45,183 bases of DNA from Candidatus Gemmiger stercoravium (GTDB taxonomy: Bacteria; Bacillota; Clostridia; Oscillospirales; Ruminococcaceae): positions 1 to 45,183 of the forward strand of contig DWWE01000084.1 of NCBI GenBank assembly GCA_019119835.1, written 5' to 3'. Positions 1,962-41,381 of the stretch are shown here, in pieces (the stretch's first letter is position 1; the number at the start of each line of letters is the position of its first letter). The translations under genes and the position numbers were made by a program. The notes below the pieces were generated by a model that was not told where the DNA came from, did no database searches, and saw only the letters and a list, made by a program, of their open reading frames with translations.

Positions 1962-3038
1962 ATGAAAATACGTGTTGGTATCCTTACTTCCGGCGGGGAT
2001 TGCCCGGGTCTGAACGCTACCATCCGCGGCGTTGCCAAGGCCTTGTATCATCGGATGGGGGACAAGGTAGAGATCATCGGCATCATGAACGGGTATGACG
2101 GCCTGATCCACGGCAACTACCGGATGATGGACCCGTCGGAGTTTTCCGGCATCCTGACCGTGGGCGGCACGATCCTTGGAACCAAGCGGACTCCGTTCAA
2201 GATGATGCGGGTGGTCGGTGAGGACAAGATCGATAAAGTGGCCGCGATGAAAAAGACCTACAAGGAGGCCAAGCTGGACTGCCTGCTGTGTCTGGGCGGC
2301 AACGGCACCCACAAGACGGCCAACCTGCTCAGTCAGGAGGGGCTGAATGTCATCGGTCTGCCGAAAACCATCGACAACGATATCTTCGGCACCGATGTGA
2401 CCTTCGGCTTCCACACGGCGGTGGACATTGCCACCGAGGTGATCGACCGCATCCACACCACGGCCGGCAGCCACAGCCGTGTCATGTGCATCGAGATCAT
2501 GGGCAACAAGGCCGGTTGGCTGACGTTGTATTCCGGCATTGCCGGCGGCGCGGACATCATCCTGATCCCCGAGCATCCCTATGATATTGAAAAGGTCGCG
2601 GACGCGGTGGAGCGCCGCGCCAAAGCCGGCAAGAACTTCTCCATCCTGGCAGTGGCCGAGGGGGCGCTGTCGGTGGAGGAAGCCAAGATGAAGCGCAAGG
2701 AATGGACCGCAAAGCGGGCCGAGTCCGGCTACACCACCGCAACCAACCGCATCGCCAAGCAGGTGGAAGCCATGACCGGCGCCGAGACCCGGATCTGCGT
2801 GCCGGGGCACATGCAGCGCGGTGGTTCGCCGTCGGCCTACGACCGTGTTTTGGCCACCCAGTTCGGCGCGTATGCGGCCGGCCTGGTGGCGGACGAACAC
2901 TATGGTGTGACCGTCGCCATGGTCAGCCGCAATGTGACCGCAAACCCGTTGATTGACATTGCCGGCAAGACCCGCAATGTGCCGGACGACTGCGCCATGC
3001 TGAACGTGGCCCGCTCTATGGGGATCAGCCTGGGCTGA
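1962..3038 (+). CDS. pfkA: 6-phosphofructokinase (PfkA family)
   Basis: 358 residues, cytoplasmic. Phosphorylates fructose 6-phosphate to fructose 1,6-bisphosphate, the committed glycolytic step. Visible motifs: N-terminal GGDCPGLNA (11-19); the phosphoryl-donor loop GGNGT (112-116); the catalytic stretch PKTIDND (134-140) with catalytic Asp138; MGNKAGWL and PGHMQRGG for the sugar phosphate. The pair Gly115/Lys135 is what ATP-using group III enzymes show; PPi enzymes have Asp and Lys, classic PfkA has Gly and Gly. The usual Asp of GGDG is Asn here, as I recall from clostridial relatives. AGGAGG ribosome site at 1950-1955. Monocistronic, closed by a strong terminator. ATP as donor is the likelier reading but not proven. 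Confidence 0.95.
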   Translation: MKIRVGILTSGGDCPGLNATIRGVAKALYHRMGDKVEIIGIMNGYDGLIHGNYRMMDPSEFSGILTVGGTILGTKRTPFKMMRVVGEDKIDKVAAMKKTYKEAKLDCLLCLGGNGTHKTANLLSQEGLNVIGLPKTIDNDIFGTDVTFGFHTAVDIATEVIDRIHTTAGSHSRVMCIEIMGNKAGWLTLYSGIAGGADIILIPEHPYDIEKVADAVERRAKAGKNFSILAVAEGALSVEEAKMKRKEWTAKRAESGYTTATNRIAKQVEAMTGAETRICVPGHMQRGGSPSAYDRVLATQFGAYAAGLVADEHYGVTVAMVSRNVTANPLIDIAGKTRNVPDDCAMLNVARSMGISLG

Positions 3039-6222: not shown

Positions 6223-8928
6223 ATGGCAAAAGAACTCGCCAAACAGTATGACCCCAAAGGCACCGAGGACAGGATCTACCAAACCTGGTGCGACAAGGGG
6301 TATTTCCACACACAGATCGACCGCAGCAAGCGTCCGTTCACCATCGTGATGCCGCCGCCCAACGTCACGGGCCAGCTGCACATGGGCCATGCCATGGACG
6401 AGACTTGGCAGGACATCCTGATCCGTTACAAGCGGATGAAAGGGTTTGCGGCGCTGTGGGTGCCCGGCACCGACCATGCGTCCATTGCCACCGAGGCCAA
6501 GGTCGTCGCCCAGATGAAGGAAGAAGGGCTGACCAAGGAGATGCTGGGCCGGGAGGGGTTCCTGGAACGCGCCTGGGCCTGGAAAAACACCTACGGCAAC
6601 CGGATCGTCAGCCAGCTGAAAAAGCTGGGCTGCTCCTGCGACTGGCAGCGGGAGCGTTTCACCATGGACGAGGGCTGCTCCGAAGCGGTGCTGGAAGTCT
6701 TTGTCAACCTTTACAACCAGGGGCTGATCTACCGGGGCAACCGGATGGTCAACTGGTGCCCCCACTGCAACACCTCCATCTCGGACGCCGAGGTGGAGTA
6801 TGAGGAAAAGGCCGGGCATTTCTGGCACCTGCTCTACCCGGTCAAGGAGACCGGCGAGATGCTGGAACTGGCCACCACCCGCCCCGAAACCATGCTGGGC
6901 GATACGGCTGTGGCCATCAATACCGACGACCCCCGCTATACGCACCTGCATGGCTGCCATGTGATCCTGCCGCTGCTGAACAAGGAGATCCCCATTGTCT
7001 GCGACGAGCATGCCGATATGGAGAAGGGCACAGGCGTTGTCAAGATCACCCCGGCCCATGACCCCAACGACTTTGAGGTGGGCAAGCGCCACAACCTGCC
7101 GATGGTGCGGGTGTTGACCTATGACGGCCGCATGACCGGTGCGTCGGACAAGGCGGCTTACGAGGAACTGAAGGCGGCTGGCCGGGCTGCTGCCGATGAA
7201 CCGGAGGTGCTGGACTGCGGCAAGTATGCCGGCATGACCGCGATGGAGGCCCGCAAGGCCATTCTGGCCGACCTGGAAGCCGGCGGATTCCTGAAACAGA
7301 CGGAGGACCTCACCCATGAGGTGGGCACCTGCTACCGCTGCCACACCGTCATCGAGCCGATGGTCTCCAAACAGTGGTTCGTCAAGATGGACCCGCTGGC
7401 CGGCCCGGCCATCGAGAGCGTGGAGAAGGGCGAGATCAAGTTTGTGCCGGAGCGCTTCACCAAGAACTACATCAACTGGATGAAGGGCAGCCGGGACTGG
7501 TGCATCAGCCGGCAGCTGTGGTGGGGCCACCGCATCCCGGCCTGGTACTGCGCCGACTGCGGCGAGACCATCGTGGCCAAAACGGCGCCCGCGGCCTGCC
7601 CGCACTGCGGCGGCACCCATCTTGACCAGGACCCGGACACGCTGGATACCTGGTTCTCCAGCGCTCTGTGGCCTTTCTCCACCCTGGGCTGGCCCAAACA
7701 GACCGAGGACCTGGACTTCTTCTATCCCACCAATGCGCTGGTCACCGGTTACGACATCATCGGCTTCTGGGTGTCCCGCATGATCTTCTCCGGCCTGGCC
7801 TACACCGGCAAGGCCCCGTTCGATACCGTGCTCATCCACGGCCTTGTGCGGGACAGCCAGGGCCGCAAGATGTCCAAGAGCCTGGGCAACGGCATCGACC
7901 CGCTGGAAGTCATCGACAGCTTTGGCGCCGACGCGCTGCGCATGACGCTGGTGGTGGGCTCCACCGCCGGCAACGACACCCGCTACAGCGAGGAGAAGGT
8001 GACGGCCAGCCGCAATTTCGCCAACAAGCTGTGGAACGCCGCCCGCTTTGTGCTGATGAACCTGCCGGAAGACTTTGCCCCGGGTATGCCGGATGAAGCG
8101 CGGCTGGATATGAGCGACAAGTGGGTACTGTCCGAGCTGGCCGCCGTGGCCGGCGAGGTGACCGGCAACCTGGAAAAGTATGAGCTGGGCCTGGCCGCCG
8201 ACAAGGTTGAAAAGTTCATCTGGGAGGTCTACTGCGACTGGTATATCGAGATCTGCAAATCCCGGCTGAACTCCGGCGACGAGCAGCAGGCCGATACCGC
8301 CCGCAAAGTGCTGGTCTATGTGCTGGACCGGGCGCTGCGGATGCTGCACCCCTTCATGCCCTTCATCACTGAGGAGATCTACCAGGCGCTGCCGGGCAGT
8401 GCTGAGACCATCATGACCCAGTCCTGGCCGGAGGCCGAAACCCTGCCCACCTGGCCGGAGGAGAGCGCGGACTTTGAAACGCTGATGGATTACATCAAGG
8501 CGGTGCGCGCCTCCCGCAGCGAGATGAACGTGCCGCCCTCCAAAAAGACCAGCATGATCATCGAGACCAGCGCCCCGGCGGCTTTCCGGAAAGGCAGCGT
8601 CTACCTGGCAAGGTTTGCCTTTGCCACCGATGTGACCCTGACCGAAAAGTATGAGGGCGACACCGCCGGCATGGTGACGGTGGTGACCCCGGCGGCCCGC
8701 GGCTTTATCCCGATGATGGAACTGATCGACCGGGAGAAGGAACTGGCCCGCCTGAACAAAGAACTGGCCAAGGCGGAAAAGGAGATCGCCATGTTCCAGA
8801 AACAGCTGGACAACCCCCGGTTTGTGGAAAAGGCGCCCGCCGCCCTGGTGGCCGAGACCCGCAGCAAGCTGACCGCCGCCCAGGACAAGCAGAAGAACGT
8901 GCTGCAGTCCATTCAGGCGCTGGGATGA
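6223..8928 (+). CDS. valS: Valine--tRNA ligase
   Basis: 901 residues, close to the usual ValS length. Class I synthetase: the HIGH-type motif is PPPNVTGQLHMGHAMD (about residues 43-58) and the KMSKS motif appears as KMSKSLGN (about 549-556). The CP1 editing domain lies between them (TTRPETMLGDTAV), Zn-type cysteine pairs occur around CADCGE/CPHCGG, the anticodon-binding domain follows, and a C-terminal coiled coil of alternating Lys/Glu/Leu (about 830-900) is the characteristic ValS tail. AAGGAGG lies eight bases before the ATG. Regulated by the T-box directly upstream; followed by a terminator. Confidence 0.98.
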   Translation: MAKELAKQYDPKGTEDRIYQTWCDKGYFHTQIDRSKRPFTIVMPPPNVTGQLHMGHAMDETWQDILIRYKRMKGFAALWVPGTDHASIATEAKVVAQMKEEGLTKEMLGREGFLERAWAWKNTYGNRIVSQLKKLGCSCDWQRERFTMDEGCSEAVLEVFVNLYNQGLIYRGNRMVNWCPHCNTSISDAEVEYEEKAGHFWHLLYPVKETGEMLELATTRPETMLGDTAVAINTDDPRYTHLHGCHVILPLLNKEIPIVCDEHADMEKGTGVVKITPAHDPNDFEVGKRHNLPMVRVLTYDGRMTGASDKAAYEELKAAGRAAADEPEVLDCGKYAGMTAMEARKAILADLEAGGFLKQTEDLTHEVGTCYRCHTVIEPMVSKQWFVKMDPLAGPAIESVEKGEIKFVPERFTKNYINWMKGSRDWCISRQLWWGHRIPAWYCADCGETIVAKTAPAACPHCGGTHLDQDPDTLDTWFSSALWPFSTLGWPKQTEDLDFFYPTNALVTGYDIIGFWVSRMIFSGLAYTGKAPFDTVLIHGLVRDSQGRKMSKSLGNGIDPLEVIDSFGADALRMTLVVGSTAGNDTRYSEEKVTASRNFANKLWNAARFVLMNLPEDFAPGMPDEARLDMSDKWVLSELAAVAGEVTGNLEKYELGLAADKVEKFIWEVYCDWYIEICKSRLNSGDEQQADTARKVLVYVLDRALRMLHPFMPFITEEIYQALPGSAETIMTQSWPEAETLPTWPEESADFETLMDYIKAVRASRSEMNVPPSKKTSMIIETSAPAAFRKGSVYLARFAFATDVTLTEKYEGDTAGMVTVVTPAARGFIPMMELIDREKELARLNKELAKAEKEIAMFQKQLDNPRFVEKAPAALVAETRSKLTAAQDKQKNVLQSIQALG

Positions 8929-33336: not shown

Positions 33337-33918
33337 ATGCAACCGATCGAACTTTTTAGAGACTGCTACCAGATCCATGAAGAAAAAACACTGCATCGCC
33401 TGTGTGAACTGGCGGAGGTGCGGCGGCTGAAAAAAGGCGAGATCTTCCTTTACTTTGGCGAGGTGCAGACCCACATCGCCCTGCAGACCAACGGCATCCT
33501 GCGCGGCTATTACACAGACGTGGACGGGACGGACCACACAGACTGCTTCAGCTTCCGGTGCGGCAACGCGGCCATGCCGCCCTGCGGGCTGACAGAACCT
33601 TCCCCCATCAACCTGATGGCCCTGACCCCCTGCGAACTTGTGACCCTGCCGCTGCCCGAAACGCTGGAGCTGATCCGGCAGTCTCCGGAACTGTTCCAGG
33701 TCTATTCCAAGCTGCTCACCGAGGCGCTGCGGCTGCACAACGGCATCAAAAACGCCCTGTGCAATTATACGGCCAAACAAAAATACGAGTGGTTCCTGCA
33801 GGAGTATCCCGGGCTGATCTTTGATGTGAACAACCGCTATATCGCCAGTTTCCTGCACATGACGCCGGAAACCCTGAGCCGCCTGCGCACCGCTACGCGC
33901 AAACGGATCGAGGGCTGA
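33337..33918 (+). CDS. Crp/Fnr-family transcriptional regulator
   Basis: 193 residues from ATG 33337 (GGAGGAAGGAG centred about 15 bases upstream). A longer in-frame start at 33202 would add a low-complexity stretch with no family match. The cNMP-binding-like beta barrel (about 20-110) shows RRLKKGEIFLYFGE and HIALQTNGILRGYYTD; the phosphate-binding signature of true cAMP receptors (RxS) is absent. C-terminal helix-turn-helix NNRYIASFLHMTPETLSRLR (about 166-185). No Fnr-type N-terminal cysteine cluster. It lies directly upstream of the polyamine operon and may regulate it (inference). Confidence 0.9.
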   Translation: MQPIELFRDCYQIHEEKTLHRLCELAEVRRLKKGEIFLYFGEVQTHIALQTNGILRGYYTDVDGTDHTDCFSFRCGNAAMPPCGLTEPSPINLMALTPCELVTLPLPETLELIRQSPELFQVYSKLLTEALRLHNGIKNALCNYTAKQKYEWFLQEYPGLIFDVNNRYIASFLHMTPETLSRLRTATRKRIEG

Positions 33919-33983
33919 AAACGGCCGGACCCGGGCGCCGGACGCTGCGGCCGCCCGCAAATGATTCGTGTTTTTTCGGGAAG

Positions 33984-34013
33984 ACTTGACAAGTGAAAAA
34001 GCTATGATAGAAT
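33984..34013 (+). promoter_or_regulatory. Promoter of the polyamine-operon leader RNA
   Basis: TTGACA (33986-33991), 16-bp spacer, TAGAAT (34008-34013). The -35 is embedded in the palindrome ACTTGACAAGT (33984-33994), identical to the one at the Crp/Fnr promoter. Confidence 0.7.
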
Positions 34014-34072
34014 AAAACTGCAAGCCGGCTGCAGGCCGGCTGCTCAGAAAACATATCTGGCCAGGCGGCGGG

Positions 34073-34129
34073 ATGATCCGCCGTCTCAAGCTCATCGGAC
34101 AGGGCTGGCCGCTGCCGCGTGTGATGTAA
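34073..34129 (+). CDS. Possible 18-residue leader peptide in the speA leader
   Basis: ATG 34073 to TAA 34129 encodes MIRRLKLIGQGWPLPRVM, with arginines at 3, 4 and 16. The only ribosome-site-like string is AGGCGG, four bases upstream, and the start lies in a small hairpin; the stop lies in the next hairpin. An arginine-containing leader peptide ahead of arginine decarboxylase recalls the SpeFL/OrgP mechanism of enteric bacteria, but this is speculation. Confidence 0.25.
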   Translation: MIRRLKLIGQGWPLPRVM

Positions 34130-34339
34130 AGCATCACAACATTATTGAACGGGACATCGTGCCCGGAAATTTTATAAGTTGGTCACTTTATAACCCGTGC
34201 GGATGCACACCACTTGTGAAACGTCAATAAGCGTAGCAGAGCAGCAGGGCCAAGTATAGTTTGCTGAATAACGCTTCTTAAAGTACGGACATGATAACCC
34301 CGAGCAGGGCCGGCCCCTGCGGGCAGGGGCGTCATACAC

Positions 34340-34376
34340 AGGCAGTGTGCAAAAAATCGGCACACTGCCTTTTGTT
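34340..34376 (+). terminator. Intrinsic terminator/attenuator just upstream of speA
   Basis: Perfect 11-bp stem AGGCAGTGTGC/GCACACTGCCT (34340-34350 and 34360-34370), 9-nt A-rich loop, then TTTGTT. It ends 31 nt before the speA start. Confidence 0.85.
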
Positions 34377-34407
34377 ATGCAGTTGTGCGGGAAGTGGGGA
34401 GTTTACT

Positions 34408-35862
34408 TTGGATATGCAACGACAAAAGAAGGCGCCGATCTATGAAGCGCTGGAAAAGTTCCGCCGGCAGCGGGTGGTGCCCTTTGATGTGCCGGGCCAC
34501 AAGCGCGGGCGGGGAAACCCCGAACTGGTGGAACTGCTGGGGGAAAAGTGCGTCGGTATCGATGTGAACTCGATGAAACCGCTGGACAACCTCTGCCACC
34601 CGGTCTCGGTCATCAAGGAAGCGGAGGACCTGGCCGCCGACGCCTTCGGCGCGGCCCACGCCTTCCTGATGGTGGGGGGCACCACAAGCAGCGTGCAGGG
34701 CATGATCCTGACGGCCTGCAAGCCGGGGGACAAGATCATCCTGCCCCGCAACGTACACAAAAGCGCCATCAATGCCATGGTGCTGTGCGGCGCCCGCCCG
34801 GTTTATATCGACCCGAAGGTGGACCGGGAACTGGGCATCCCCCTGGGGATGGAGGTGGCCGACGTGCGCCGGGCGATCGAAGAAAACCCGGACGCCGTGG
34901 CGGTGTTCATCAACAACCCCACCTATTACGGCATCTGTTCCGACCTGCGCAGCCTGGTACAGCTGGCCCATGAACACAATATGCTGGCCCTGGTGGATGA
35001 AGCCCACGGCACCCACCTGTATTTCGGCCCGCATCTGCCCTGCAGCGGCATGGCGGCCGGGGCCGACATGGCCGCCGTCTCGATGCACAAATCCGGCGGC
35101 AGCCTGACCCAGAGCTCGCTGCTGCTCTGCGGCCCCCGGGTCAACGCGGGGTATGTGGGCAACATCATCAACCTGACCCAGACGACCAGCGCCTCCTACC
35201 TGCTGATGGCCAGTTTGGATATCAGCCGCCGCAATCTGGCCATGCGGGGGGACCAGAGCTTTGCCCGCGTGGTGGAGATGGCCGAGTACGCCCGGCGCGA
35301 GATCAACCTGATCGGCGGTTATTACGCTTATGGGTCGGAGCTCATCAACGGCGGCAGCATCTTTGATTTCGATGTCACCAAGCTGGCCGTCAACACCCGC
35401 GGCATCGGGCTGACCGGCATCGAGGTGTACGATCTGCTGCGCGACGAATATGACATCCAGGTGGAGTTCGGGGACCTGTCCAACATGCTCGCCTACATCT
35501 CCATCGGGGACCGCATCCAGGACATCGAGCGGCTGGTGGGGGCGCTGGCGGACATCCGCCGCCTGTATGCCCGGCCCAAAAGCGATCTGTTCACAGCCGA
35601 GTACATCACCCCCCAGGTGGTGGCCACACCGCAGCAGGCTTTCTACTCTGACAAGGAGAAACTGCCGCTGCGCCAGACGGCCGGCCGCATCTGCAGCGAA
35701 TTCGTGATGTGCTATCCGCCGGGCATCCCCATCCTGGCCCCCGGCGAGGTCATCACCCAGGAGATCATTGACTACATCGAGTTCGCCAAGGCCAAGGGGT
35801 GCTCGATGCAGGGCCCGGAAAGCCCGGATATTTCGGAACTGAATGTACTCAAGGAGGAATGA
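34408..35862 (+). CDS. speA: Arginine decarboxylase (fold type I, short form)
   Basis: 484 residues, matching the short Firmicute Orn/Lys/Arg decarboxylase class (B. subtilis SpeA about 490). Start is TTG 34408 (GGGGAG six bases upstream) or ATG 34414 (twelve bases); the difference is two residues. PLP enzyme: Lys228 in SMHKSGGSLTQ binds PLP, DEAHG (197-201) holds its ring, and PGHKRGRG (29-36) is the family N-terminal signature. Arginine rather than lysine or ornithine as substrate is inferred from aguA and aguB in the same operon: arginine to agmatine is the step they need. Expression probably requires readthrough of the terminator upstream. The next gene begins 3 nt after the stop. Confidence 0.93.
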   Translation: MDMQRQKKAPIYEALEKFRRQRVVPFDVPGHKRGRGNPELVELLGEKCVGIDVNSMKPLDNLCHPVSVIKEAEDLAADAFGAAHAFLMVGGTTSSVQGMILTACKPGDKIILPRNVHKSAINAMVLCGARPVYIDPKVDRELGIPLGMEVADVRRAIEENPDAVAVFINNPTYYGICSDLRSLVQLAHEHNMLALVDEAHGTHLYFGPHLPCSGMAAGADMAAVSMHKSGGSLTQSSLLLCGPRVNAGYVGNIINLTQTTSASYLLMASLDISRRNLAMRGDQSFARVVEMAEYARREINLIGGYYAYGSELINGGSIFDFDVTKLAVNTRGIGLTGIEVYDLLRDEYDIQVEFGDLSNMLAYISIGDRIQDIERLVGALADIRRLYARPKSDLFTAEYITPQVVATPQQAFYSDKEKLPLRQTAGRICSEFVMCYPPGIPILAPGEVITQEIIDYIEFAKAKGCSMQGPESPDISELNVLKEE

Positions 35863-35865
35863 GCC

Positions 35866-36732
35866 GTGCAGGAGATGGATTACTGGTTCGGCGAGCTGCA
35901 TACCGCCAACGTCAAGACCTGCATCCGGGTCGAACGGCAGCTGTACAGCGGCACCAGCGAGTTCCAGCGGATCGATGTCTTCGATTCGCCGGAATTCGGC
36001 CGCTTTTTGGCCTCCAACGGCAGCGTGATCTTTTCGGAGAAGGATGAATTCACCTACGACGAGATGATCGTCCATGTGCCGATGGCCGTCCACCCGGATG
36101 TGAAACGGGTGCTGGTGATCGGCGGCGGCGACGGCGGGGTGGCCCGGGAACTGTCCCATTACCACGAGATCGAAGTCATTGACATCGTGGAGCCGGACAA
36201 AATGTTCGTGGATGTCTGCCGCAAGTTTTTCCCTGACAATTCCTGCGGGCTGGATGATATAAGGGTCCGCATCTATTATGAGGACGGCCTGCGCTTTCTG
36301 CGCGGCAAAGAGGACGAGTACGACCTGATCATCAACGACTGCACCGACCCCCTGGGCCACGCTGCCGGCCTGTTCACCAAGGAGTTTTACGGCAGCTGCT
36401 ACAAGGCGCTGCACGACGACGGCATCATGGTCTACCAGCACGGCAGCCCCTTTTTTGATGAGGATGAGGAGACCTGCCGCGCCATGCACAAGCGGGCCTA
36501 CCGCTCTTTCCCCATCAGCCGGGTGTATCAGGCCCACATCCCCACCTGCCCGGCCGGCTACTGGCTGTTCGGCTTCGCCAGCAAAAAGTATCACCCCCTG
36601 AAGGATTTTGACCCCAAGCGCTGGAACAAACGGGGGATCAAGACCTGGTACTATACCACCCACCTCCATCGCGGTGCCTTCATGCTGCCCCGCTATGTGG
36701 AGGATCTCTTGCAGGAGGAAGAAGAATCCTGA
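35866..36732 (+). CDS. speE: Spermidine synthase-like aminopropyltransferase
   Basis: 288 residues. GTG 35866 is ten bases after AGGAGG, which lies inside the end of speA. N-terminal beta-sheet domain (1-60), then a Rossmann domain with GGGDGG (86-91) and acidic Glu109 (VEPD) for the nucleoside. Catalytic Asp158 is kept in IINDCTDP. Two motif positions differ from usual SpeE: YDEM (64-67) for YHEM, and DPLGHA for DPxGPA. Spermidine synthases need decarboxylated SAM, and no speD is in the window. It may use another amine acceptor such as agmatine, or work with a distant speD (inference). Confidence 0.9.
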   Translation: MQEMDYWFGELHTANVKTCIRVERQLYSGTSEFQRIDVFDSPEFGRFLASNGSVIFSEKDEFTYDEMIVHVPMAVHPDVKRVLVIGGGDGGVARELSHYHEIEVIDIVEPDKMFVDVCRKFFPDNSCGLDDIRVRIYYEDGLRFLRGKEDEYDLIINDCTDPLGHAAGLFTKEFYGSCYKALHDDGIMVYQHGSPFFDEDEETCRAMHKRAYRSFPISRVYQAHIPTCPAGYWLFGFASKKYHPLKDFDPKRWNKRGIKTWYYTTHLHRGAFMLPRYVEDLLQEEEES

Positions 36733-36781
36733 AACCCGCTGTCCGTTCTTTACCCGCCCGATTTTGAAAGGAGTATGACGT

Positions 36782-38044
36782 ATGAGCAAAATGTTGGTCA
36801 TCGGCTGCGGCGGCGTCGCCTCGGTCGCCATCCAGAAATGCTGCCAGAACCATGAAACCTTTACCGAACTCTGCATTGCCAGCCGCACCGTCTCGAAATG
36901 CGACGCCCTCAAAGCCAAGCTGGAAGGGCAGGGCACCCCGGTCAAGATCACCACGGCCACTGTCAACGCCGACGATGTGGAGGACATCAAGCGGGTGATC
37001 ACCGCCTTCCAGCCGGATCTGGTGCTGAATGTGGCGCTGCCCTACCAGGACCTGACCATCATGGACGCCTGCCTGGCCTGCGGCGTCGATTATGTGGATA
37101 CCGCCAACTATGAGCCGGAAAACACCGACGACCCCGCCTGGCGCGCCGCCTACGAAAAGCGCTGCAAGGAGGAAGGCTTCACCGCCTACTTTGACTACAG
37201 CTGGCAGTGGGCCTATGCCAAACGGTTTGAGGAAGCGGGTCTGACCGCGATCCTCGGTTCCGGCTTTGACCCGGGCGTGACCAGCGTCTTCACCGCCTAT
37301 GCGCTGAAGCACTATTTTGACGAGATCCACACCATTGACATCCTGGACTGCAACGGCGGCGACCACGGGTATCCGTTTGCCACCAACTTCAACCCCGAGA
37401 TCAACCTGCGGGAAGTTTCGGCCAACGGCAGCTACTGGGAGAACGGCCACTGGGTGGAGACCAAGCCCATGGAGATCAAGCGGGAGTACGACTTCCCCCA
37501 GGTGGGCAAAAAGGATATGTACCTGCTGCACCATGAGGAGATCGAGAGCCTGGCCAAAAACGTGCCCGGCGTGCGCCGCATCCGTTTCTTCATGACCTTC
37601 GGCCAGAGCTACCTGACCCACATGAAGTGCCTGGAAAATGTGGGGATGCTCTCCACCAGCCCCATCAACTTTGAAGGGCATGAGATCGTCCCGATCCAGT
37701 TCCTGAAGGCGCTGCTGCCCGACCCGGCCTCTCTGGGCCCACGCACCGTCGGCAAGACCAACATCGGCTGCATCTTCCAGGGCGTCAAGGATGGGAAGGA
37801 GCGCACCATCTACATCTACAATGTCTGCGACCACCAGGCCTGCTACCGGGAACTGGGGAGCCAGGCCATCAGCTATACCACCGGCGTCCCGGCTATGATC
37901 GGCGCGGCGCTGGTGGCGAACGGCACCTGGCGCAAACCCGGCGTATTCAACCTGGAACAGATGGATCCGGACCCCTTCATGGAGATGCTGAACCGCTACG
38001 GTCTGCCCTGGGTGGTGGATGAAGCCCCCGCCACGGTGGAATGA
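36782..38044 (+). CDS. Carboxynorspermidine/carboxyspermidine dehydrogenase (saccharopine dehydrogenase family)
   Basis: 420 residues. AAAGGAG lies eight bases before the ATG. N-terminal Rossmann fold MLVIGCGGVASVAIQKC (4-20, GxGGVxxxA), then DYVDTANYEPENT and LGSGFDPGVTSVFTAYA, and a C-terminal substrate domain with HPY-less YPFATNFNPEINLREVSANG. This family joins putrescine (or agmatine in the CAPADH variants) to aspartate semialdehyde with NADPH, giving the carboxylated polyamine that NspC decarboxylates. Overlaps nspC by 4 nt, in line with consecutive steps. True saccharopine dehydrogenase is much less likely next to nspC. Confidence 0.94.
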   Translation: MSKMLVIGCGGVASVAIQKCCQNHETFTELCIASRTVSKCDALKAKLEGQGTPVKITTATVNADDVEDIKRVITAFQPDLVLNVALPYQDLTIMDACLACGVDYVDTANYEPENTDDPAWRAAYEKRCKEEGFTAYFDYSWQWAYAKRFEEAGLTAILGSGFDPGVTSVFTAYALKHYFDEIHTIDILDCNGGDHGYPFATNFNPEINLREVSANGSYWENGHWVETKPMEIKREYDFPQVGKKDMYLLHHEEIESLAKNVPGVRRIRFFMTFGQSYLTHMKCLENVGMLSTSPINFEGHEIVPIQFLKALLPDPASLGPRTVGKTNIGCIFQGVKDGKERTIYIYNVCDHQACYRELGSQAISYTTGVPAMIGAALVANGTWRKPGVFNLEQMDPDPFMEMLNRYGLPWVVDEAPATVE

Positions 38045-39189
38045 TGGACCGGCAGTACAGCACCGAACCCCGGCTGCAGACGCCGGTCTATGTGGTGGAC
38101 GAACAGGCCCTGCGCCGGAACCTGGAGGTCCTGGCCGGGGTGCAGCAGCGCACGGGGTGCCACATCCTTCTGGCGCAAAAAGCCTTTTCGCTGTTCTATG
38201 CCTACCCGATGATCGGCCGGTATCTGGCCGGCACCACCGCCAGCGGTCTGTTTGAGGCCCGCCTGGCCCATGAAACCATGCCGGGGCGGGAGAACCATGT
38301 GTTCAGCCCTGCCTATACCTCGGCGGAAATGGCTGAACTGGTGGAGATCTGCGACCATATCAGCTTCAACAGCCTGGCGCAGCTGGAAGCCCACCGCCCG
38401 CTGTGGCAGAACAGTCGGGCCAGCGTGGGGCTGCGGGTCAACCCGGAGCATTCCACCCAGCAGGGCCATGCCATCTATGACCCCTGCGCCCCCGGCAGCC
38501 GGCTGGGCATCCGGCGAAAGGACCTGCCCGAACAGCTGCCCGACGGGGTGGAAGGACTGCATTTCCATACCCTGTGCGAGCAGGACGCCGCCCCGCTGGT
38601 GGAGACGTTTGCGGCCTTTGAAGCTGCGTTCGGTCAGTATCTGCCCGGGCTGCGCTGGCTGAACCTGGGCGGTGGGCACCATATCACCCGCCCGGGATAC
38701 GACCTGGCGGCGCTGGAACGGCTGATCCGCTCCATCAGGGAAAAGTATGGGGTGGAGGTCTATCTGGAGCCGGGCGAGGCCATCGCCCTCAACGCCGGAA
38801 CCCTCATCACCACCGTGCTGGATGTGGTGGAAAGCGACATGCCGATCCTGATTCTGGATGCCTCCGCGGCCTGCCACATGCCCGACGTGCTGGAAATGCC
38901 CTACCGTCCGCCGCTTTTGGGGGCGGGGGACCCCGGCGAAAAGCCGGTGACCTGCCGGCTGGCATCCCGCACCTGTCTGGCTGGGGATGTGATCGGCGAG
39001 TACAGTTTTGATCGGCAGCCCCGGGTCGGTGATCGACTGGTGTTTGCCGACATGGCCATCTATACAATGGTCAAGAACAATACCTTCAATGGAATGCCGC
39101 TGCCGGACATCGCCTGGCGCGGGGAGGATGGCCGCTGTGCCGTGATCCGCCATTTCGGGTATGAAGACTTCAAGAATCGTTTGTCCTGA
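38041..39189 (+). CDS. nspC: Carboxynorspermidine/carboxyspermidine decarboxylase
   Basis: 382 residues. Fold type III (alanine-racemase-like) PLP decarboxylase: Lys47 in LLAQKAF binds [12 protein letters not shown] and [14 protein letters not shown] form the phosphate-binding region; [11 protein letters not shown] and [13 protein letters not shown] (with the C-terminal catalytic Cys) are NspC marks. Decarboxylates carboxyspermidine to spermidine (or the agmatine-derived equivalent). Start is ATG 38041, overlapping the previous stop, or ATG 38044 directly after; they differ by one residue. Confidence 0.95.
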
Positions 39190-39206
39190 AACAGGGGAGG
39201 GTTACC

Positions 39207-40349
39207 ATGTCGTTGCCGCCGAGAGACTGGCAGGGGTTTTCGATGCCGGCCGAGTATGCCCCGCACCGGGCCACTCTGATGATCTGGCCGGTGCGGCCGG
39301 GCAGCTGGGGGAAGGACCCCCGCCCGGCCCAGCGGGCCTTTGTGCGGGTGTTTGAGGCCATTACCCGGAGCGAGGATCTGTACCTGCTGGCTGCCCCGGA
39401 TCAGGCCGAACAGGCCCGGGCGGCCACCGCCGGCCTGCCCCGTGTGACAGTGCTGGAAATTGAGAGCGACGACGCCTGGGCCCGGGATGTGGGCCCGACC
39501 TTTGTCAAAAATGACGCCGGGGAACTGCGGGGCATCAGCTGGACCTTCAACGCCTGGGGCGGGCTGGTGGACGGACTGTATGCCGACTGGGAGAAGGACG
39601 ATGCGGTGGCGGCGGCTTTCTGCCGTGCGCTGGGGGTATCCTGCGCCGATGCGTCGCCCTTTGTTCTGGAAGGCGGCAGCATCCACAGCGACGGTGAGGG
39701 GACGCTGCTCGTGACCGAGAGCTGCCTGCTCTCGGCCGGGCGGAATCCCCGGATGCGCCGTGAGGAGATCGAGAAGACCCTCTGCGCCTGGCTTGGCGCG
39801 GAAAAGGTGCTCTGGCTGCCCCGCGGGATCTACCAGGACGAGACCAACGAACATGTGGACAATGTCTGCGCCTTTGTGGCGCCCGCCACCGTGGTGCTTG
39901 CCTGGACCGACAACCAGGCCGACCCGCAGTATGCGCTGTCCCGGCAGGATTTGGAATATCTGCAAAGCGTCACCGACGCCCGGGGGCGGCCGCTGCACAT
40001 CCACAAACTGCCGATCCCCGACCATCCGATCCTCTGCGATGATGCGGACTGCGCGGCGTACTCGTTTGCGCCCGGTGAGGCGGTGCGGACCCCCGGGGAG
40101 CGGTTGGCAGCCAGCTATGTGAACTTCTACTTTACCAACAAGGCGGTGCTGGTCCCGCAGTTTGGTGGGGACAACGCCGCCAGCGACGCCCGGGCCTGCC
40201 GGATCCTGGCTGAACTCTGCCCGGACCGTCAGGTCATCGGGCTGCCGGCCCGGGAGATCCTGCAGGGTGGGGGAAACATCCACTGCATCACCCAGCAGAT
40301 CCCCGGCCAGGGCGTGTCGGACCATTCAGACCTGCAGGAAAACGGCTGA
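39207..40349 (+). CDS. aguA: Agmatine deiminase
   Basis: 380 residues, usual length. Hydrolyses agmatine to N-carbamoylputrescine and ammonia. Pentein fold with the agmatine-type start [22 protein letters not shown] (13-34), [12 protein letters not shown] (88-99), [13 protein letters not shown] (154-166), His216 in NEHVDN and nucleophile Cys360 in GGGNIHC. AGGGGAGGG precedes the ATG; 17 nt after nspC. Supplies the aguB substrate. Confidence 0.96.
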
Positions 40350-40391
40350 AAAGCAGCGGATAGAAGGCGCGAGCCCGCAGGAATACGTTGT

Positions 40392-40430
40392 GCCCGCCGC
40401 GCTTTCGCAGCGCGGCGGACGGGGCTTTTT
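40392..40430 (+). terminator. Hairpin between aguA and aguB, possible partial terminator
   Basis: GCCCGCCGCGC (40392-40402) with GCGCGGCGG (40410-40418), then ACGGGGC and TTTTT. The T-run is seven bases off the stem unless the GGGGC also pairs, so it could reduce rather than stop transcription into aguB. Confidence 0.45.
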
Positions 40431-40502
40431 AGCCGGATCAGACAGCGCCGTTTTTCAGATGCACCCCAGGGGGCAAAGACCGAAACCAGGAGGTTGATCG
40501 TA

Positions 40503-41381
40503 ATGTCCAAAGTCATTGTGGCTGCGGTCCAGATGGATTGCCAGACCGACCCGGCCCTGAACCTGAACCACGCCGAGGAACTGGTGCGTCGGGCGGCGGA
40601 CGCCGGGGCGCAGATCGTTTTGCTGCCTGAATTGTTTGAGCGGCCTTACTTTTGCCAGGAACGCCGCTACGATTACTATACCTATGCGCAGCCGGTGCAG
40701 CAGAATCCGGCGGTGCAGCGGTTTCAGCAGGTCTGCAGGGAACTGCAGCTGGTCATGCCGATCAGCTTCTATGAGGCGGACGGCAACTGCCTGTATAACA
40801 GCGTCGCCATGATTGACGCCGACGGCAGCCTGCTGGGTGTCTACCGCAAGACCCACATCCCGGACGATCACTACTACCAGGAAAAATTCTATTTTGCCCC
40901 CGGCAACACCGGCTTCCGCGTTTTTGAAACCCGCTATGCCCGGGTGGGCGTCGGCATCTGCTGGGACCAGTGGTTCCCCGAAACGGCGCGCTGCCTGGCC
41001 TTAGGCGGCGCAGACCTGATCCTGTACCCCACCGCGATCGGCAGCGAACCGATTCTGGAGGTGGACAGCGTCGGGCACTGGCAGCGCACGATGCAGGGCC
41101 ATGCGGCGGCCAACGTGCTTCCGGTGGTCGCCGCCAACCGGTATGGGGTGGAGACCGTGACGCCCTGTGCCGAAAACGGCGGGCAGCAGAGCGCTTTGTG
41201 TTTTTACGGGTCCAGCTTCCTGACCGATGAGACCGGCGCGGTGCTGACCCAGGCGGACCGCACCGGCGACGCGGTGATCACCGCCGCCTACGACTTTGCG
41301 GCCATCCGCCAGGCCAGGCTGGAATGGGGCCTGTTCAGGGACCGCCGGCCGGGCTGCTACGGCGCGATCTGCGGGCGCTGA
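40503..41381 (+). CDS. aguB: N-carbamoylputrescine amidohydrolase
   Basis: 292 residues. ATG 40503 is eight bases after AGGAGG. Nitrilase-family triad: Glu43 (LPELFERPYF), Lys116 (YRKTHIP), Cys153 (GICWDQWFPE), with the AguB-specific DDHYYQEKFYF and WDQWFPE. Converts N-carbamoylputrescine to putrescine, CO2 and ammonia, supplying putrescine for spermidine synthesis. Last gene of the operon, closed by a strong terminator. Confidence 0.96.
   Translation: MSKVIVAAVQMDCQTDPALNLNHAEELVRRAADAGAQIVLLPELFERPYFCQERRYDYYTYAQPVQQNPAVQRFQQVCRELQLVMPISFYEADGNCLYNSVAMIDADGSLLGVYRKTHIPDDHYYQEKFYFAPGNTGFRVFETRYARVGVGICWDQWFPETARCLALGGADLILYPTAIGSEPILEVDSVGHWQRTMQGHAAANVLPVVAANRYGVETVTPCAENGGQQSALCFYGSSFLTDETGAVLTQADRTGDAVITAAYDFAAIRQARLEWGLFRDRRPGCYGAICGR

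Follow-up and report, generated by a model that had tools for sequence, protein, structure and literature searches.

Polyamine-sensing riboswitches have long been sought, and in Salmonella the speF gene is controlled by ribosome-mediated attenuation through a leader peptide. A spermidine riboswitch, a variant of SAM-I situated before ldcC, speB and speE, is described in a report whose authors expect further polyamine-sensing classes (Salvail et al. 2023, PMC10853860). In pneumococcus, an RNA named SN20 (TIGR4 869478-869791, listed as 318 nt) lies between SP0915 on the minus strand and SP0916 on the plus strand, and the paper in which it is listed suggested that it is an FMN switch (PMC2887815). 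SP_0916 is said to encode an arginine decarboxylase (PMC10887117), and the pneumococcal polyamine genes are found downstream of cadA (PMC6727871). F59, SN20 and srn235 are one pneumococcal locus (PMC3395615; tables in PMC12323649 and PMC4387999). The connection of this locus with the Rfam family RF02440 (SpF59_sRNA, 54 nt) rests on the Rfam name SpF59 and on the published tables; the second label of the family, "ldcC RNA", suggests that someone had linked the RNA to a decarboxylase gene. In the openly accessible literature, no description of the element reported below as a regulator of polyamine genes was found, and an earlier description is possible.

The leader and its operon in Gemmiger

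The stretch of DNA analysed here, referred to as the window, comprises 45,183 nt of contig DWWE01000084.1 from Candidatus Gemmiger stercoravium. It contains a six-gene polyamine operon on the plus strand. The first gene (34408-35862) encodes a speA-like Orn/Lys/Arg decarboxylase, whose best NCBIfam match was LdcC with 78.7 bits, under the cut-off of that model. It is followed by speE, encoding polyamine aminopropyltransferase (35866-36732; NF002010, 353 bits, above cut-off), a carboxynorspermidine synthase/dehydrogenase homologue (36782-38044; NF043000, 414 bits, below the cut-off of 800), nspC, encoding carboxynorspermidine decarboxylase (38041-39189; TIGR01047, 451 bits, above cut-off), aguA for agmatine deiminase (39207-40349) and aguB for N-carbamoylputrescine amidase (40506-41381). 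Within 35866-41381, speE is thus accompanied by the carboxynorspermidine synthase homologue and nspC, and speD is absent.

A promoter of the form TTGACA-16-TAGAAT is located at 33986-34013 on the plus strand; it agrees with the consensus at 11 of 12 positions, and a similar site was seen by eye at the same place in the relatives L003 and L010. The promoter scan gave no second promoter-like site on the plus strand of 33500-34700, in agreement with the initial annotation, which had placed the promoter here and none between the terminator and speA. For the leader that would start from this promoter (34019-34376, about 358 nt), a minimum free energy of -144.7 kcal/mol was computed, with a z-score of -4.98 against dinucleotide shuffles, none of 100 being as low. 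A structured leader before speA had been proposed from the outset, and this z-score and the covariation among relatives (see below) bear it out.

The leader ends in an intrinsic terminator at 34340-34376 on the plus strand, consisting of a stem (34341-34350/34360-34369), extended by the pair 34340-34370, and a T-rich tail, TTTTGTT. The hairpin (34340-34370) has a computed energy of -19.5 kcal/mol and a loop of 9; it was omitted by the automated terminator scan, in which the maximum loop was 8. From the terminator end to the speA start, as assigned in the earlier reading, there are 31 nt, and it was confirmed that the terminator lies directly 5' of speA, so that expression would require readthrough. 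The speA frame is open upstream as far as an ATG at 34291, inside the leader and across the terminator; hence, automatic annotation may place the start of the gene too early.

The RNA family and its fold

A covariance model, R1, was trained on an alignment of 29 relatives (A1) from which the clade of the window was left out entirely; seven of the 36 training candidates (L142, L088, L122, L068, L099, L164 and L102) had been dropped because their 5' ends were poorly trimmed or their 5' domains had diverged. R1 finds a conserved structured element, comprising a candidate aptamer and a switching strand, at 34057-34276 on the plus strand of the window, with 70.8 bits, an E-value of 7e-20 and all 200 model positions (1-200) covered. 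At E up to 0.001 this is the single match in the genome of the organism. A second match in the window, at 8595-8729 on the minus strand with 15.8 bits, was taken as chance.

At gathering scores, Rfam yielded three tRNAs only in the whole window. When the threshold was relaxed to E up to 10 for 33900-34450, nothing came near the gathering score of any family; low-scoring matches in the leader (uxuA, nhaA-II and others) were attributed to chance. At the same threshold the leader gave no match to the speF family and none to the general SAM models, which were also without a match, at E up to 1 and 0.5, in 22 element-bearing loci. The gathering cut-off of RF02440 (37.2 bits) was not reached by the window; this family was also without a match elsewhere in the organism's own genome and in the four close kin that were scanned (L003, L005, L010 and L012). 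Outside the clade of the window, 10 of 11 loci have an RF02440 match in the 5' part of the leader, and in a second set of element-bearing loci five of seven are matched, the scores of the relatives ranging overall from 38 to 73 bits. Three loci (L016, L021 and L023) score with RF02440 as well as with R1, the first two being training sequences of R1. On this comparison of sequences, the window element is judged homologous to the RNAs that match RF02440. The initial annotation had recognised no known family in the RNA; the cmscan search supports this for the window leader itself, but it has to be corrected for the relatives, which carry the RF02440 domain.

The element is widespread. In a DNA search of 61 genomes, including the organism's own, the leader was matched in 34, and the distant matches fell on query positions 188-257, which correspond to 34167-34236 of the window. 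RF02440 matches were found in 43 of 197 genomes of the window's order and in 7 of 199 in a phylum sample; with R1, the figures were 52 of 197 for the order and 19 of 299 in the phylum sample, one of the latter being likely chance (L205, set aside since no polyamine gene was found beside it). Genome contigs were also scanned with a core pattern, which captures well conserved cores only, and at least 120 stretches were obtained; among the matches listed are Bacillus, Paenibacillus, Heyndrickxia, Lachnospiraceae, Oscillospiraceae, Acidaminococcus, Phascolarctobacterium, Faecalibacterium and Gemmiger. Weak members that keep mainly the 3' part are found before speD-speA in four loci (L200, L201, L202 and L203, around position 1501-1740 in each case, on the strand of the element), and in L201 and L203 a promoter-like sequence takes the place of the 5' half.

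A MAFFT alignment that took in all 115 dereplicated elements had too many gaps for RNAalifold, and a filtered set of 80 was better; the secondary structure was then drawn by hand. It opens with a long-range closing helix, P0, whose 5' strand (34045-34056) pairs with a partner at about 34254-34266; the duplex has -9.0 kcal/mol in the window, in a register that was set by hand and is approximate. Next comes an accessory domain (34059-34117) of P1, P2 and P3 with a pseudoknot (34096-34102/34112-34117), the part that RF02440 models in relatives; the window pairs of this domain were assigned by hand, with P3 two positions off the model alignment. The hairpin P4 (34120-34126/34132-34138) leads to the core (34142-34230), which is made up of P5 (34142-34148/34224-34230), P6 (34150-34153/34162-34165), P7 (34170-34179/34212-34221), P8 (34181-34183/34193-34195) and P9 (34197-34200/34205-34208), and the core is followed by P10 (34231-34234/34271-34274). 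The P1-P3/pseudoknot domain is missing in 20 of the 115 dereplicated elements, as judged by eye among 27 that failed a pattern test. The shared core is therefore P4-P9 and not the catalogued piece.

Covariation among relatives was a check set beforehand, and it was found. In A1, the hand-drawn structure of 66 pairs has 92.4% standard pairs, with changes on both sides in 23 of the pairs, compared with 12.8 in shuffled controls (sd 2.0) and 7-19 when the structure was slid along the alignment, a control that favours the hand-drawn structure because this was drawn on one A1 sequence; the cells with such changes numbered 93, compared with 38.5 after shuffling. A larger alignment, A3, holds 90 of the 115 dereplicated loci aligned to R1, a procedure that leans towards the structure; here, both sides change in 35 of 61 pairs (shuffled 21.7, slid 10-16) and in 428 cells (shuffled 126). 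Most of the covariation lies in six helices, P1, P2, P4, P6, P9 and P10, with few such cells in P3 and P11. All six modelled pairs of P4 change on both sides among the 90 sequences, as do all four pairs of P10 (9 cells), in which 97.4% of cells are paired. The pairing of P9 amounts to only 76% among the 90 sequences; its outer pair, paired in 31% of the 29 and 37% of the 90, was discarded as unsupported. P5, P7, P8 and the pseudoknot are nearly invariant in sequence, so that covariation neither supports nor opposes them.

The alignment of the 5' flank was too poor for a count by columns, and P0 hence rests on permutation tests of pairing. Among 73 elements, the 5' flank pairs with the strand preceding the 3' arm of P10 at -15.1 kcal/mol when matched and at -12.8 when mismatched, and none of 5000 permutations was as good; an ungapped run of at least 8 was found in 49 of 96 loci and in 26.5% of mismatched pairs. 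P11, which is included in R1, is doubtful because P0 uses part of its 3' strand; four of its five pairs change on both sides among the 90 sequences, in one sequence each, and none among the 29. Near the 3' end of the element, a GACUCU motif in several relatives (L104, L106 and L130, the last from Heyndrickxia coagulans) can pair with AGAGU of P10 or with GAGUC of the 5' flank, in the outer part of P0; possibly, this alternative constitutes a second switch.

Leaders with a terminator and an antiterminator are frequently controlled by a protein or a tRNA instead of a small molecule. For the present family such control is quite unlikely, in view of a large fold with invariant internal strands, an occurrence from Bacillus to Lachnospiraceae, and the lack, in the stretches scanned, of an Rfam match to any T-box or protein-leader family. 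A leader peptide acting through the ribosome, in the manner of Salmonella speF, was also considered. The window leader, like any sequence, contains short open frames. Frames with a preceding Shine-Dalgarno sequence and 5 or more codons were counted inside the element, between about 105 nt upstream and 110 nt downstream of the core start; no more than 5 of 110 elements have one, and in three of these its position is roughly the same. On the count for this range the explanation was rejected, its probability being close to nil.

The proposed switching strand and the genes downstream

The 3' strands of P7 and P9 are complementary to the 5' arm of the terminator, and the two pairings are, by computation, mutually exclusive. 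The switching strand GCACACCACUUGUG (34205-34218, plus strand) is predicted to pair either within P9 and P7 or with an antiterminator partner at 34337-34350 that overlaps the terminator 5' arm. It had been noticed initially that GCACAC at 34205-34210 repeats the 3' arm of the terminator and may form an antiterminator; the observation holds, and the possible pairing is even longer, with 12 of the 14 positions of 34205-34218 paired with 34337-34350 and the additional pair 34204-34351, at a total of -19.5 kcal/mol. With the window folded up to 34350, the core fold (-120.0 kcal/mol) and the antiterminator (-119.4 kcal/mol) are nearly equal; at full length, the core fold with the terminator is lower than the antiterminator by 8.5 kcal/mol. 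The unconstrained fold of the leader (-144.7 kcal/mol) lies below both of these, the proposed core fold with terminator being at -135.9 kcal/mol; the pseudoknot is not counted in any of these energies.

A terminator was found in 154 of 165 loci of the family, at a median of about 57 nt before the gene. As regards the other 11, the sequence ends in five (L087, L088, L110, L124 and L151), the scan was negative in another five (L081, L085, L113, L138 and L170), and in L115 the scanned stretch, cut by the assigned gene start, was 58 nt only and shows a terminator-like hairpin by eye. In 106 dereplicated loci, the switching strand pairs with the arm of its own terminator at -13.4 kcal/mol, with those of other loci at -11.2 and with shuffled arms at -7.05; none of 5000 permutations was as low, but related loci are not independent, and such permutation counts overstate significance and are not probabilities. 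The advantage of the own arm is also seen within the groups of loci that precede speA (61 loci), speD (25) and potA (5), and it is lacking in the carboxynorspermidine synthase group (14 loci), with -10.41 for own arms compared with -10.21 for mismatches within the group. According to these computed folds, the leader possesses what is expected of the expression platform of a riboswitch, namely two mutually exclusive pairings.

The genes that follow the element belong to polyamine metabolism. The set of 165 loci was not dereplicated, and some records occur in it more than once. In 158 of these loci the start of a polyamine gene lies 125-575 nt (median 282) after the core: speA in 83, carboxynorspermidine synthase in 37, speD in 31, potA in six, and a P-II gene followed by potA in one; the available sequence of the other seven ends 71-377 nt past the core. 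After dereplication, this applies to 110 of 115 loci (speA 62, speD 26, carboxynorspermidine synthase 16, potA 5, P-II 1), with too little DNA in five. The protein queries for these genes were picked after some of the loci had been inspected. An unrelated open frame of 60-68 amino acids lies between the core and the gene in 5 of the 158 loci. NCBIfam models applied to representatives identified speD, carboxynorspermidine synthase (below cut-off) together with nspC, and potA together with homologues of potB, potC and potD, this potABCD-type composition having been checked in one potA operon. Of the loci from the DNA search, 29 of 30 have a speA homologue downstream on the same strand, that of L016 being about 1 kb away. 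A link of the leader with polyamines, as had been proposed, is probable, and the leader is a diverged member of a large, widespread and conserved family of cis-regulatory RNAs of polyamine genes.

In the reverse direction, when the order's 30 best speA loci were examined, 26 had the element; in the other four (L243-L246) none was found by eye either. Among 41 genomes of the order with a speA match above 680 bits, 29 are among the R1 matches (in G110 on another contig) and 12 are not, so that speA often does without the element. Three of the loci lacking it (L243, L244 and L246), which are related, have another short leader, at about 1300-1500 on the strand of the gene, in which they share a TATATTCTGGTGTAGTATACTC stretch. 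In L115, the element (near 1999-2172, minus strand) precedes a gene for a P-II type nitrogen regulator, which is followed by potA; a link of nitrogen status with polyamine import is a possible meaning of this arrangement.

Rfam types RF02440 as "Gene; sRNA", and insertions in srn235/SN20 gave a value of 0.05 for pneumococcal lung fitness by Tn-seq (PMC3395615), both of which would fit a terminated RNA acting mainly in trans. This is nevertheless very improbable, since every one of the 158 loci with sufficient sequence has the element upstream of a polyamine gene and on its strand, and the switching strand matches the local terminator; the insertions, we infer, could also be polar on the operon.

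Proposed polyamine sensing and the described systems

The best candidate ligand is spermidine, because speA, speD/speE, carboxynorspermidine synthase/nspC and potABCD all have it in common, as product or as cargo. Riboswitches are generally recognised by a conserved, covarying structured domain and by downstream genes of one metabolic theme, both of which are present here. The reading favoured below builds on what was computed: the family with its helices, the genes that it precedes, and two exclusive pairings, of which the second follows the terminator of its own locus. On this basis, we consider it likely, at a probability of roughly 70%, that the leader acts as an OFF riboswitch that attenuates transcription in response to a polyamine, with spermidine the likeliest, direct binding, ligand and sign being what we infer from the above. 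When polyamine is plentiful, the core fold P5-P9 would be stabilised and the strand 34205-34221 held in P9 and P7, whereupon the terminator (34340-34376) would form and transcription would stop before speA. When polyamine is scarce, 34205-34218 would pair with 34337-34350 and block the terminator, and the six-gene operon would be transcribed.

A riboswitch of the same anatomy could instead respond to a precursor or signal that is not a polyamine, such as arginine, lysine, agmatine, SAM or decarboxylated SAM. The substrate of SpeA is arginine or lysine and that of SpeD is SAM, and sequence alone cannot identify a ligand; on the other hand, no single precursor is common to the speD, carboxynorspermidine synthase and potABCD-type contexts, as spermidine is, which makes a precursor ligand fairly unlikely. 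Arginine, which the initial annotation had named beside polyamines as the signal, is the less likely of the two because the same RNA precedes speD, carboxynorspermidine synthase and polyamine importer genes.

The pneumococcal data of one study bear on the OFF polyamine riboswitch in both directions. When polyamine uptake was blocked by AMXT 1501, SPD0809, 0811, 0813, 0814 and 0815 rose 1.4-1.9 fold in RNA-seq and three of these genes rose 2.4-3.3 fold in qRT-PCR (PMC10887117), which by analogy would count for such a switch. DFMO lowered the putrescine and spermidine biosynthesis genes (PMC10887117), and this would, by the same analogy, count against it.

It seems somewhat probable that the family constitutes a structurally new, widespread class of polyamine riboswitch and the main spermidine sensor of many Bacillota, controlling synthesis (speA, speD, carboxynorspermidine synthase) as well as uptake (potABCD), which was overlooked because the catalogued part was limited to an accessory domain of 54 nt, listed as a small RNA. 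The RF02440 model differs from the family of the window in that its 54 nt span the P1-P3/pseudoknot domain only and it is typed as an sRNA gene and not as a cis-regulator. The position of SN20 directly upstream of SP0916 (PMC2887815) is that expected of a terminated leader like the window element; if the proposed reading is true, this pneumococcal "small RNA" is the terminated leader of a polyamine operon.

RNA leaders before polyamine genes also include the speF and odc1 motifs of Gram-negative bacteria and the potE motif of Veillonella (PMC11477304, PMC8632094); these belong to other lineages or genes than the window family, and odc1 includes an upstream open frame. That a polyamine- or arginine-responsive attenuator would be new, as was first supposed, no longer stands as such, since a polyamine riboswitch was already published in 2023 (PMC10853860). 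Like the element proposed here, the spermidine-binding SAM-I variant is a transcriptional OFF switch with a terminator and an antiterminator; it has a four-stem fold and is rare, with 13 representatives aligned, whereas the fold of the window family is larger and different (PMC10853860). The present element precedes genes of both polyamine synthesis and import and offers a compact template on which binding can be tested. In print, the validated class that was found for bacteria is this rare variant (PMC10853860), and the family of the window looks much commoner.
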